DNA from: an uncultured Chitinophagaceae bacterium
GTDB lineage: Bacteria; Bacteroidota; Bacteroidia; Chitinophagales; Chitinophagaceae
Direction: 5' to 3'
NCBI GenBank assembly: GCA_946885665.1
Contig: CAMPGT010000100.1
Coordinates: forward strand, 1-13,051
DNA length: 13,051 bases
Positions 1,163 through 7,357 of the stretch are shown here, one piece after another. The first letter of the stretch is position 1. Each line of letters starts with the position of its first letter. The notes beneath the pieces were generated by a model. It did no database searches, was not told the DNA's origin, and saw only the letters and a list, made by a program, of their open reading frames with translations. The translations under genes were made by a program, and so were the position numbers.

Positions 1163-2569
1163 ATGCTTATCCAACAACTCTACACTGGTTGTCTCAGTGA
1201 AGCCGCATACTATATTCAGAGCGATGGCGAAGCCGCTGTTATCGATCCTCTCCGGGATATCGAATCGTACCTGCAGCTCGCTACCCAGGAAAAGGCCACG
1301 ATCAGGTATATTTTCGAGACGCATTTTCATGCTGACTTCGTCAGTGGCCATCTCGACCTCCAGGCTGCCACCGGCGCTCCAATCGTCTATGGGCCGAATA
1401 CCGAAACCAACTTCCCCATCCATCTCGCCAAAGACGGCGAAAAGTTCAAATTAGGCAAGGTGAGCATTGAAGTGCTGCACACACCCGGCCACACGATCGA
1501 ATCGACGTGCTATCTGCTTCGCGATGAAGACGGAAAGCCGCATGCAGTGTTTACAGGCGATACACTCTTCGTGGGCGACGTGGGCCGTCCCGACCTCAGC
1601 AGCGGCAACCTCACCAAAGAAGAGCTGGCGTCCATCATGTACGATTCTCTAAGAAACAAAATAATGGCGCTCCCCGACGATGTGCTGGTGTACCCTGCGC
1701 ACGGGCCGGGCAGCAGTTGCGGCAAGAACCTTGGCCCCGAAACGACCAGCACCATCGGTCAGCAAAAGGAAACGAATTACGCCTTGCGGGAACAAACCCG
1801 CGAAGAGTTTATAAAAGCTGTTACCCACGACCTCGATGAACCACCGCAATACTTTCCAGTCAACGCACGCATTAACAGGGAAGGGTACGACAGCCTTGAA
1901 AAAATTCTCGATAAGGCCCTTACGCCACTGTCGGTAGAGGAGTTCAGAGAAAAGATGCAGCATGACGAAACCATCGTTCTCGACACGCGCCGGGCCACCA
2001 GCTTTACACAGGGGTTCATCCCTAACGCCATAAGCATCGGACTGGAGGGAAGATTTGCGGAGTGGGCAGGTGTTTTACTGTCGTTCGAAAAGCCCATTCT
2101 GATAGTGGCCGCCCCGGGAACCGAGCGCGAAGCGGTGATCCGCCTCGCCAGGGTGGGCTTCTCATTGATCAATGGGTATTTAGCGGGCGGCTTTGAATCA
2201 TGGAAAGAGGCCGGCGAGCCGATCGACATGATCATCGACGTTGAGCCTGATGAACTGGCGATGGACATTCCGCACGATCCCCGGCTGGCAGTGGTAGATG
2301 TGAGAAGGGAAACTGAGTTTGGCGATTCTCACATCGTAAATGCCGTTAATCTGCCCCTGGATGAGCTGAACGATCCCGTGAACATTTCGAAACTGGATGA
2401 GGATCTGAATTTTTATCTTCATTGCGGAACGGGCTACAGGAGCGTGATTGCCGCATCGCTGATCAAGCGGCAGGGAATTCACAACATCAGGAACATATTG
2501 GGTGGATTTGAACGGATCAGGGAACAGGAAAATATTGCGCTTAAGAAAGAGAACAGTGTGCTGAACTAG
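1163..2569 (+). CDS. cstB: CstB-like persulfide dioxygenase-sulfurtransferase (MBL plus two rhodanese domains)
   Basis: The 468-residue protein is predicted to oxidise low-molecular-weight persulfides to sulfite and form thiosulfate, detoxifying sulfide in the cytoplasm. Residues 1-230 are a metallo-beta-lactamase fold with HFHADF (54-59), HTPGH (106-110), TGD (131-133) and GRPD (141-144). The last His of the usual HxHxDH motif is Phe, which fits the mononuclear iron site of ETHE1/CstB enzymes using His54, His110 and Asp133. GSSCGK holds Cys186, a cysteine conserved in CstB. Residues 262-352 form a rhodanese domain with no active-site cysteine (IVAAPGTERE). Residues 365-452 form an active one with HCGTGYRS (Cys421). 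This domain order is that of CstB. No TauE-like exporter or sulfide:quinone reductase lies beside it here. Confidence 0.9.
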   Translation: MLIQQLYTGCLSEAAYYIQSDGEAAVIDPLRDIESYLQLATQEKATIRYIFETHFHADFVSGHLDLQAATGAPIVYGPNTETNFPIHLAKDGEKFKLGKVSIEVLHTPGHTIESTCYLLRDEDGKPHAVFTGDTLFVGDVGRPDLSSGNLTKEELASIMYDSLRNKIMALPDDVLVYPAHGPGSSCGKNLGPETTSTIGQQKETNYALREQTREEFIKAVTHDLDEPPQYFPVNARINREGYDSLEKILDKALTPLSVEEFREKMQHDETIVLDTRRATSFTQGFIPNAISIGLEGRFAEWAGVLLSFEKPILIVAAPGTEREAVIRLARVGFSLINGYLAGGFESWKEAGEPIDMIIDVEPDELAMDIPHDPRLAVVDVRRETEFGDSHIVNAVNLPLDELNDPVNISKLDEDLNFYLHCGTGYRSVIAASLIKRQGIHNIRNILGGFERIREQENIALKKENSVLN

Positions 2570-2588: not shown

Positions 2589-3495
2589 TTAACTTCCTTT
2601 AGGCGGTTCTTCATCGATCCACAACTCACTGTACTCTGGCTTCCATTCTTTTTTCCAGCGCCGATGGCTCCACAACCACATTTCGGGATGCTGCCTGATC
2701 ACTTTTTCCAAAAAGCGCGCATACTGCCTCGTCAGCTCGCCCGCCGGCAGCGTAGCCGCTTCGCTTGTGCATATTTCATACTCCATCCGGTAATACCCCC
2801 CCCCGTTTCACTTTGTAGATCTGCCCAAATGCTACAGAAAGGTTGCCCGCAACGGCGCCCCTTTCGGGTCCCCAAACAAAAGGCGTTGGTCTTCCGAAAA
2901 AATTAAGCCAGTAGGCCCTTGAAACATCTCCCGGTACCTGGTCGGCAACCAGCACAAGCAGGTATTGCGTGTTCCTGTAAGGAATCATCTCTTTTCTCAT
3001 TTCCGTGGCCGGCAGCAGAATATTGTTGCTGGCCTTTCTCAGTTTCAGCATTATCCGGTCGAACGTTTTGTTTTGAACAGGCATATACACCACGATCATG
3101 GGAAACGACAGGTACCGCGTAGCGCCCACGTTGGCCAGTTCCCAATTGAAATTGTGCCCCAGCAAAAACTGCAACTTTTTTCCCTTTCGGTACTCTTCTT
3201 CTAACTGCGTATTGTCAATCGTAAAATGTTTGGACGCGTACGCAGCGCCGCCCGACAATATCTTAAGGGTTTCAATAAAGTTGTCGATGAAATTCTTGTA
3301 GAATTGTTTTTCTATTTTCTTTTTTTCTTATGCAGTCCGTTCCGGAAAGGCGATGTTGAGATTGTTCCTCACTACCTGCTTGCGATACCCGAATACATGA
3401 TAAATGACAAAATACACGAAATCCGAAAACAGGTACAACACCCGGATCGGCAGCAGGGACAGGGCGTACAAAAATCCGTAGGCTAGGTAGTACAT
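2589..3495 (-). pseudogene. Broken LpxL/HtrB-like lysophospholipid (lipid A) acyltransferase
   Basis: Read through two lesions, this encodes about 300 residues, the usual size for acyltransferases that add a secondary acyl chain to lipid A at the inner membrane. The N-terminal piece (55 codons from ATG 3495) has a hydrophobic helix and ends RNNLNIAFPERTA before TAA at 3330-3328. The same frame then continues EKKKIEKQFYKNF, so AAA (Lys) appears to have become TAA. The middle piece carries the catalytic HX4E motif in GHNFNWE and GNLSVAFGQIYKVKRGG. A G9 run (2796-2804) then shifts the frame; with eight Gs it would continue YYRMEYEIC to MWLWSHRRWKKEW, a typical family C-terminus. The start lies 2 nt after the kinase-RapZ fusion, so the two were co-transcribed. 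Sequencing error or phase variation could explain the G run; the stop argues for decay. Confidence 0.8.
2796..2804 (-). repeat. G9 homopolymer tract causing a frameshift in the acyltransferase gene
   Basis: Nine C on the plus strand (G on the coding strand) fall inside a codon run encoding KRGG. Eight would keep the acyltransferase frame open to its C-terminus; nine lead to a stop ten codons past the run (VLPDGV then TGA). Such tracts slip in replication and are also prone to sequencing error. Confidence 0.85.
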
Positions 3496-3497
3496 GG

Positions 3498-4946
3498 CTA
3501 GGTGTTGATCCAGTTTTTGGCGTCCTGCTCCACGTGGTTGAGCTCAATCTTCACTTTGAATTTATTCCGCAGATGACGTGCAAGACTATCGGCAGCGAAC
3601 ACGCTCCTGTGCTGCCCGCCGGTACATCCGAAACTCACCTGCAGGTGCTCAAATCCTCTCTTGATATAATCTTCGACGGATATGTCCACGATCGTATAAA
3701 TGCTATTGAGGAACTCGGCGATCTTCGATTTTTGTTCGAGAAAATCCTGGACGGATTTATCCCTCCCTGTCAGTTGCTTATATTCCTCGAATCTGCCGGG
3801 GTTGAGTAATCCGCGGCAGTCGAACACAAAGCCTCCACCGGTTCCGCCCACTTCCGGCGGTATGCCTTTGCGGTAAGAAAAACTGTTGATGTGCACCACC
3901 AGCGGCGTGCCTTCATCGGCCTGCACCGGTTGAAAGCGGTCAATAATTTCATCACTGACGACGAGGTTCAGCAGCCGGTCGAATTCCGGCAGTTGAATAC
4001 CCGAATTTTTATTCGCGAGAAATGATTTCAAATTGGTCAAGGCGAGCGGAATGCTTGTGAGAAAGTGCGCCTTGCGTTCAAACAATCCCCTGAACCCATA
4101 AGCGCCCAGCACCTGCAGCAACCGGATCAGCACATAGCCGTTGTACCGGTTCACAAAAGGTATCCGTTCAACTTTTTCCGACAGGTTTTCTTCAACGCAC
4201 TCAATATAATATTCCAGCAGCCTGTCTTTCCATTCGTCAGAAAGCTGGGCCCTGGCCTGCCACAACATGGAGGCCACGTCGTATTGCAACGCGCCTTTCA
4301 TCCCGCCCTGGTAATCGATAAAATGAACCTGGCCGTCATCTGTCATCACGTTTCTGCTCTGAAAATCGCGGAACATGAAATATTTGTGCTCCGCACTGGA
4401 AAGGAAAGTGCTGAGTTGCTCAAAATCTTCCAGCAATTGTTCTTTATCGTAGGGCGCCTGAAGCGTATCGAGAAAATAGTATTTAAAATAAAGCAGGTCG
4501 CTCATGATGGCCTGTTTGCCAAATTCCCGGCTGGTTATGCACCTGCTGTAATCCAGGGAATTATCGCCTTTGATCTGTAAATGTGCCAGTTGTTTAAGTG
4601 AGGCCTGGAACAACGCATACACCTTCTCATGCTGTCCCAATTCATCCAATTGGTTCAGTAATGAAACGTTTCCAAAATCTTCCTGCAGATAAATGGTCGT
4701 TTCTTTGTTGACCGCCATAATTTGCGGCACGGGACAGCCGCAGGCCCTGAAGTGTTTCGAAAAATAAATAAATGTTTCGTTCTCGCGGATATTTCTGCCA
4801 TAGGTTGCTATCGAAGTAATTCCTTCTCCATAAGCTCTGAAATAAATGCGATCGCTTCCGCTCTGTGGTATCTTTTCAATAGTAACAACCGGCGAGCCGT
4901 ATGTTGCGCGGAACAGTTGTTTTATTTCCTCTAGTACTTCATCCAT
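3498..4946 (-). CDS. APH/AmgK-like phosphotransferase fused to a RapZ C-terminal domain
   Basis: The 482-residue protein has two parts. Residues 1-340 are an aminoglycoside-phosphotransferase-fold kinase with the catalytic loop FRDFQSRN (192-199; Asp194, Asn199) and the metal-binding DYQGG (211-215), most like AmgK, which phosphorylates MurNAc/GlcNAc at the anomeric position in peptidoglycan recycling. Residues 348-482 resemble the C-terminal half of RapZ: HINSFSYRKGIP, FVFDCRGLLNPG (373-384) and FGCTGGQHRSV (439-449). In E. coli RapZ this half binds glucosamine-6-phosphate and the GlmY/GlmZ RNAs. RapZ's own P-loop ATPase half is absent, and the basic C-terminal tail needed for RNA binding is not matched (the end is NHVEQDAKNWINT). 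It may therefore be an amino-sugar kinase with a sensor domain. It is followed 2 nt later by the broken lipid A acyltransferase. Domain calls are strong; substrate is inferred. Confidence 0.88.
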   Translation of the reverse strand: MDEVLEEIKQLFRATYGSPVVTIEKIPQSGSDRIYFRAYGEGITSIATYGRNIRENETFIYFSKHFRACGCPVPQIMAVNKETTIYLQEDFGNVSLLNQLDELGQHEKVYALFQASLKQLAHLQIKGDNSLDYSRCITSREFGKQAIMSDLLYFKYYFLDTLQAPYDKEQLLEDFEQLSTFLSSAEHKYFMFRDFQSRNVMTDDGQVHFIDYQGGMKGALQYDVASMLWQARAQLSDEWKDRLLEYYIECVEENLSEKVERIPFVNRYNGYVLIRLLQVLGAYGFRGLFERKAHFLTSIPLALTNLKSFLANKNSGIQLPEFDRLLNLVVSDEIIDRFQPVQADEGTPLVVHINSFSYRKGIPPEVGGTGGGFVFDCRGLLNPGRFEEYKQLTGRDKSVQDFLEQKSKIAEFLNSIYTIVDISVEDYIKRGFEHLQVSFGCTGGQHRSVFAADSLARHLRNKFKVKIELNHVEQDAKNWINT

Positions 4947-7036: not shown

Positions 7037-7357
7037 ATGCAAAAGAGGATTTTAGGGTATGTATTACTGGTATTAGGATTAGGGGGAATGGGATTAGCAG
7101 GTTATTTATTTGCAGTGGGTACCGGCGGAAGAGGTCAATTAATTGAAGTGTGCAGCTATATGATTTTGGGCGCCATCTGCTTTTTTGTCGGTCTCAATTA
7201 CGTTTATACAGATGCTAACAAGTTTACGGAAGAACATCTCCAGATCACACCCGAACTTGAAGAAGTGTCGCCGATACAGCAACAATGGAGAACCATCCAT
7301 ATCGCGAAGCAGCCTGCAAGGCAGGCGCGCGAAAATGCTTCGGCAGACGTTGTTTAG
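7037..7357 (+). CDS. Small two-helix membrane protein of unknown function
   Basis: I do not recognise this 106-residue protein. It has two hydrophobic segments, about 5-27 (glycine-rich, LGYVLLVLGLGGMGLAGYLF) and 37-57 (CSYMILGAICFFVGLNYVY), followed by a soluble tail of about 48 residues rich in Gln, Glu and Ala. It is probably an inner-membrane protein with a hairpin topology and a tail that stays on one side. The promoter candidate directly upstream, ATG start and continuous open frame support a real gene. Its stop codon overlaps that of the convergent glycosidase gene by 4 nt, so there is no room for a dedicated terminator between them. It is not part of an operon. Confidence 0.7.
   Translation: MQKRILGYVLLVLGLGGMGLAGYLFAVGTGGRGQLIEVCSYMILGAICFFVGLNYVYTDANKFTEEHLQITPELEEVSPIQQQWRTIHIAKQPARQARENASADVV

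Follow-up and report, generated by a model that had tools for sequence, protein, structure and literature searches.

The pocket of the Escherichia coli protein RapZ has been likened to the loop of cysteine-dependent tyrosine phosphatases, and hydrolysis of glucosamine-6-phosphate (GlcN6P) was suggested as possible (Khan and Gorke, PMC7199280). Islam et al. (PMC9841335) reported that the substitutions C247A and C247S abolish RapZ activity, with the thiol considered possibly catalytic, and that the density in crystals of the C-terminal domain (CTD) with GlcN6P is likely that of a transformed product. A phosphatase activity has been ascribed, at second hand, to YvcJ of Bacillus subtilis (PMC7525490). 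Here we analysed a window of 13,051 nucleotides (the whole stretch of DNA under study, from an uncultured Chitinophagaceae bacterium), in which one gene joins a kinase to a RapZ C-terminal domain (RapZ-C). Our best reading, held with about even confidence, is that the product is a bifunctional N-acetylmuramic acid (MurNAc) 6-phosphatase/MurNAc 1-kinase of peptidoglycan recycling; the domains, the fold, an invariant loop, the gene neighbourhood of relatives and the co-occurrence across genomes are the observations that underlie it.

An earlier note on this DNA had recognized an APH/AmgK-like kinase and a RapZ C-terminal domain in one frame, and the open frame and Pfam confirm this, with the following parts:

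3498..4946, minus strand: kinase-RapZ-C fusion, whole gene, 482 amino acids, ATG start at 4946 and stop at 3498-3500 (from the open frame, its translation and Pfam)
4011..4946, minus strand: AmgK-like kinase of the APH fold, approximately residues 1-312
4350..4370, minus strand: kinase catalytic loop, residues 193-199, with R193, D194, F195, R198 and N199 invariant in a 50-row alignment
4314..4316, minus strand: D211 of IDYQGG, invariant in the 50-row alignment, presumably the metal-binding Asp of the kinase, a role that we take over from the APH/kinase superfamily
3519..3902, minus strand: RapZ C-terminal domain, residues 349-476
3792..3803, minus strand: NPGR, residues 382-385, where Gly384 corresponds to E. 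coli His190 and Arg385 to Trp191 (from alignments and column counts)
3603..3626, minus strand: CTGGQHRS, residues 441-448, the Cys-X5-Arg-Ser phosphate loop

APH is the sole Pfam match in the N-terminal half, where the P-loop ATPase half of RapZ is not found, and the full-length RapZ model scores 103 of 244 bits, with the match in its C-terminal part. The chain ends in HVEQDAKNWINT and lacks the basic RNA-binding tail of RapZ, so that Pfam and the C-terminal sequence uphold the earlier description of a kinase in place of the ATPase half and of a missing tail. The kinase fold of the N-terminal half was borne out, with D194, N199 and D211 as the catalytic Asp/Asn/Asp, and the C-terminal half has the RapZ-CTD fold. 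No HAD-type match was found in the fusion in Pfam at E ≤ 0.01, and no phosphatase fold rose above noise level for the RapZ-C half in the fold comparison.

The best NCBIfam kinase matches of the fusion are two AmgK models, at 56.5 of 550 and 40 of 500 bits, far under the cut-off. A MurU-like nucleotidyltransferase gene lies at most five genes from the kinase in 78 of 103 loci (the window included), on the same strand in 76 of the 78 and at a distance of -55 to +176 bases in 68; three of the 25 loci without one nearby stop at a contig edge, and L112 has a MurU-like gene nearby in addition to the 78. These loci are not independent, since most are Chitinophagaceae; among 23 loci from across the phylum (L110-L132), such a gene is near in 16, plus L112. 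The 13,051-nucleotide window contains no MurU-like gene. The MurU-like proteins have MurU as their best NCBIfam match, at 131-147 bits for the four proteins scored against a cut-off of 250. Across 198 Bacteroidota genomes, a MurU-like orthologue at E ≤ 7e-35 occurs in exactly the same 24 genomes as RapZ-C, on another contig in six of them, and the next match (5e-32) belongs to G015, a genome with the kinase and without RapZ-C. MurQ is the consumer of MurNAc-6-phosphate (MurNAc-6P) in the catabolic route. Kinase relatives were detected by profile search in 67 of the 198 genomes, and MurQ is present in 11 of these 67 versus 130 of the 131 genomes without the kinase (two weak SIS matches, in G093 and G134, were not accepted as MurQ). 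Such exclusion is what a MurNAc salvage route predicts, as Pseudomonas is reported to use AmgK and MurU and to lack MurQ (PMC5371407). With MurU-like genes and RapZ-C in the same 24 genomes and kinase genomes mostly devoid of MurQ, the kinase half is therefore probably, as far as sequence can tell, an AmgK-type MurNAc 1-kinase of peptidoglycan recycling. It very likely phosphorylates MurNAc (perhaps also GlcNAc, N-acetylglucosamine) at C1, and the amino-sugar kinase of cell-wall recycling that the earlier note had envisaged is supported by its best match, its usual neighbour and its distribution opposite to that of MurQ.

A RapZ-C that strips MurNAc-6P of its 6-phosphate should be required in genomes that both produce MurNAc-6P and follow the AmgK route. 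RapZ-C gives a single match in each of its 24 genomes, in frames of 478-525 residues in 20 and of 134-149 residues in four. AnmK (PF03702) is found in 17 of these 24 genomes and in 119 of the 174 others, and we rejected AnmK alone as the explanation of RapZ-C; a fit was obtained only once PF01869 kinases were added. All seven RapZ-C genomes without AnmK have a kinase-type PF01869 protein of about 300 residues. At loci L133, L135 and L138 its gene directly adjoins those of an AmpG-like transporter and of a GH3/NagZ-like enzyme, at L136 the same set has one extra gene inside, and at L134, L137 and L139 an AmpG-like gene adjoins the kinase gene or lies one gene off. Family checks confirmed these neighbours for L135, and those of L134, L137 and L139 as MFS transporters only. 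Beside the AmpG-like and kinase genes, L135:9888-12764 encodes a protein of about 958 residues that combines a NagZ-like GH3 glycosidase with a beta-lactamase-family domain, as do L133 and L138.

We defined a predicted MurNAc-6P maker as a genome with AnmK or a kinase-type PF01869 protein, where the split between kinase-type and activase-type proteins is our own, by E-value and frame length. All 141 MurQ genomes are makers. Among the 67 kinase genomes, makers account for 24/24 with RapZ-C and 0/43 without. MurQ is missing from 57 genomes, of which 13 are makers, and these coincide with the 13 that carry RapZ-C. PF01869 matches also occur in nine kinase genomes that have no RapZ-C; the one protein taken from each exceeds the cut-off for acyl-CoA dehydratase activases, and for that reason such matches were not scored as sugar kinases. 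For the five kinase-type proteins scanned (L135, L138, L139, L214 and L215), the nearest NCBIfam model is NagK, at scores under its cut-off. A second set comprised 76 genomes of one order and partly overlaps the first, to which all MurQ counts refer. The kinase is present in 31 of the 76 and RapZ-C in 29 of those 31; the remaining two kinase genomes, G015 and G246, lack both RapZ-C and AnmK and are alone among the 76 in having no kinase-type PF01869 protein. Their kinase and MurU-like genes overlap by 4 bases. All other genomes of this order carry a kinase-type PF01869 protein, whether RapZ-C is present or not.

The loop of the RapZ-C half, C441-T-G-G-Q-H-R447-S448, conforms to a Cys-X5-Arg-Ser motif, and its Cys and Arg are invariant in 54/54 rows of the family alignment and in 13/13 sequences across phyla. 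Four of the five RapZ pocket residues H190, T248, G249, H252 and R253 are kept in all 54 rows, the exception being H190. Its position is occupied by Gly (Gly384) in every row, followed by Arg385 (Arg in 49, Lys in four and Gln in one), and a Gly-rich insertion precedes the strand in Bacteroidota RapZ-C. The domain retains the RapZ fold and the phosphate loop, with His190 lost and a neighbouring Arg gained. These replacements would make the Bacteroidota pocket roomier and more basic, which would suit a substrate with a lactyl carboxylate.

In the mechanism that we propose, AnmK or a BadF-type sugar kinase would supply MurNAc-6P, which would be held in the Cys-X5-Arg loop of RapZ-C and relieved of its 6-phosphate, probably through nucleophilic attack by Cys441. 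The kinase half would then phosphorylate the resulting MurNAc, and perhaps GlcNAc as well, at C1, and the MurU-like enzyme would make UDP-MurNAc, with MurA and MurB bypassed, so that one chain would do the work of Pseudomonas MupP and AmgK. That RapZ-C acts on or binds MurNAc-6P appears fairly likely; that it is catalytic is an evenly balanced proposition. With somewhat less than even confidence, we suggest that the RapZ C-terminal domain may be an ancient amino-sugar-6-phosphate phosphatase family, supplying in Bacteroidota the MurNAc-6P phosphatase activity of a MupP-AmgK fusion or standing alone beside the kinase and MurU, and that in the P-loop proteins RapZ and YvcJ the same active site may have been converted to a GlcN6P sensor that clears itself and to a site for RNA binding.

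Several points temper the case for a MurNAc-6P phosphatase. On the kinase tree, which omits L165 (G030), a kinase truncated at a contig end, and in which the G186 row has a very long branch, the absence of RapZ-C amounts to two changes only (one large clade and the G015/G246 pair), and MurQ presence, within the kinase genomes from the first set, to at least four. The Fisher value for RapZ-C and makers (4e-13) is thus not to be taken at face value, as it reflects one or two independent events. The maker label of the PF01869 proteins is itself a prediction, the nearest model being a GlcNAc kinase, and if every PF01869 match is counted, 9 of the 44 genomes lacking both MurQ and RapZ-C become makers. 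The genome table covers the kinase, RapZ-C, the MurU-like gene, MurQ, AnmK and PF01869 proteins. Moreover, the genome pattern would be the same if RapZ-C catalysed nothing and instead sensed MurNAc-6P (or GlcNAc-6P), turning the MurNAc 1-kinase on or off to match salvage to the MurNAc-6P pool. A fused or adjoining gene fits a regulator, and the E. coli RapZ-CTD is reported to bind a hexosamine 6-phosphate (PMC7073468). Under such sensing, however, RapZ-C genomes with AnmK and without MurQ would have no known outlet for MurNAc-6P, the RapZ-C gene and the kinase of G186 lie on different contigs, and an invariant Cys would seem to exceed the needs of a binding loop; we regard this sensor as unlikely. 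In Tannerella forsythia, for which AmgK and MurU have been proposed by others (PMC7670621), a murK mutant is reported to be viable and to accumulate UDP-MurNAc-pentapeptide (PMC5790795), which suggests that the MurNAc-6P step is dispensable where free MurNAc is imported.

The earlier note had favoured control of the kinase by GlcN6P, which we widened to UDP-GlcNAc: the domain would tune an amino-sugar kinase to de novo supply. E. coli RapZ is reported to bind GlcN6P at 186 nM, and its isolated domain to bind GlcN6P too (PMC7073468); YvcJ of B. subtilis is reported to bind UDP-GlcNAc (PMC7525490), and the phosphate loop is kept. Against this, the His190 reported as required for E. coli RapZ function (PMC9841335) is the very residue replaced by Gly, an argument that is weak because the position holds Tyr in two and Phe in three of nine other RapZ-C sequences (His in four), and the link to MurNAc-6P makers would be left without a reason. 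GlcN6P control is thus improbable; the domain tracks predicted makers of MurNAc-6P, a pattern that a MurNAc-6P phosphatase or sensor fits at least as well. Database names such as 'RNase adapter RapZ' and the RapZ-CTD fold would suggest an RNA adaptor like E. coli RapZ; we rejected this barely credible role, as the P-loop half and basic tail are absent, His190 is lost, and the RNA-binding residues are reported as restricted to Enterobacteriaceae (PMC7073468). Of the earlier interpretation, the cell-wall sugar kinase and the absence of an RNA step (no P-loop half, no basic tail) are supported, and GlcN6P control is not the best fit; catalysis by the RapZ-C half lay outside its readings.

Returning to the proposed phosphatase-kinase, the architecture is common in Bacteroidota, and a rare architecture was rejected: at least 8000 candidate homologues pass at E 1e-5, and both Pfam domains are present in 120/120 of those listed. 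Where given, their source names are 'aminoglycoside/choline kinase family phosphotransferase', 'phosphotransferase' or 'RNase adapter RapZ'. From the genome collection 80 loci were retained, for the most part of Chitinophagaceae and other Bacteroidota, and the fusion also occurs in plasmid-collection records named Bacteroides finegoldii, Parabacteroides distasonis, Phocaeicola massiliensis and Prevotella sp. oral taxon 299. The kinase (338-343 residues) and RapZ-C (133-135 residues) are separate adjoining genes in G037, G101 and G018; at L110 the kinase gene is followed after 3 bases by RapZ-C, which in turn overlaps a MurU-like gene by 4 bases. Stand-alone RapZ-C genes lie at L113:9620-10027 and L110:9705-10106. 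G186 has a RapZ-C gene without an adjoining kinase. When a profile of the C-terminal domain was searched, the proteins listed came chiefly from short contigs. Another architecture of RapZ-C was seen in two Streptomyces plasmids (L200:3016-3897 and L201:3016-3897), where a 293-residue 'RNase adapter RapZ' carries the domain at its N-terminus (residues 2 or 3 to 117), ahead of a further stretch of about 175 residues.

For E. coli RapZ, the literature already notes the likeness of this loop to that of tyrosine phosphatases. Among open-licence PMC papers, we found none on the kinase-RapZ-C architecture and none that combines the phosphatase-loop idea with AmgK/MurU recycling in Bacteroidota; the earlier note had left it undecided whether this architecture was characterised, and the domain-architecture search shows it to be widespread. 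If the proposed reading is true, a MurNAc-6P phosphatase would be named for Bacteroidota on the anabolic MurNAc route, and a function would be given to thousands of proteins labelled 'RNase adapter RapZ' or 'aminoglycoside/choline kinase family phosphotransferase'. Whether the RapZ C-terminal domain only binds amino-sugar phosphates or hydrolyses them would become directly testable, and the stand-alone RapZ-C genes offer small targets free of RNA and the ATPase half. By analogy with Pseudomonas, a route that bypasses MurA may also bear on the fosfomycin tolerance of these bacteria.

Elsewhere in the window, an LpxL-like lipid A acyltransferase gene (2601-3495, minus strand) lies directly behind the fusion gene and shows a frame shift near 2799 relative to 19 relatives, either a sequencing error or a broken gene. 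A metallo-beta-lactamase with two rhodanese stretches (1163-2569, plus strand) lies behind an ArsR-type regulator (773-1144), and a 106-residue open frame (7037-7357, plus strand) has hydrophobic stretches at its start and no Pfam match at E 0.01.

Compared with known systems, the fusion has its C-terminal domain in common with E. coli RapZ and B. subtilis YvcJ, from which it differs by the kinase in place of the P-loop ATPase half, the change of His190 to Gly, the Gly-rich insertion and the lack of a basic tail. With AmgK, the N-acetylmuramate/N-acetylglucosamine 1-kinase of Pseudomonas and Caulobacter, it shares the APH fold, the top NCBIfam kinase model and, in most relatives, a MurU-like neighbour, whereas its 56.5 of 550 bits remain far under the curated cut-off, RapZ-C is attached and its substrate is predicted only. 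MupP, the MurNAc-6P phosphatase of Pseudomonas, corresponds in the proposed reaction and in its pathway position, after AnmK and before AmgK (PMC5371407), but is a HAD phosphatase and, given the RapZ-CTD fold of the fusion, at most a functional analogue. To cysteine-dependent tyrosine and dual-specificity phosphatases, the RapZ-C half is alike in its succession of strand, Cys-X5-Arg-Ser loop and helix.
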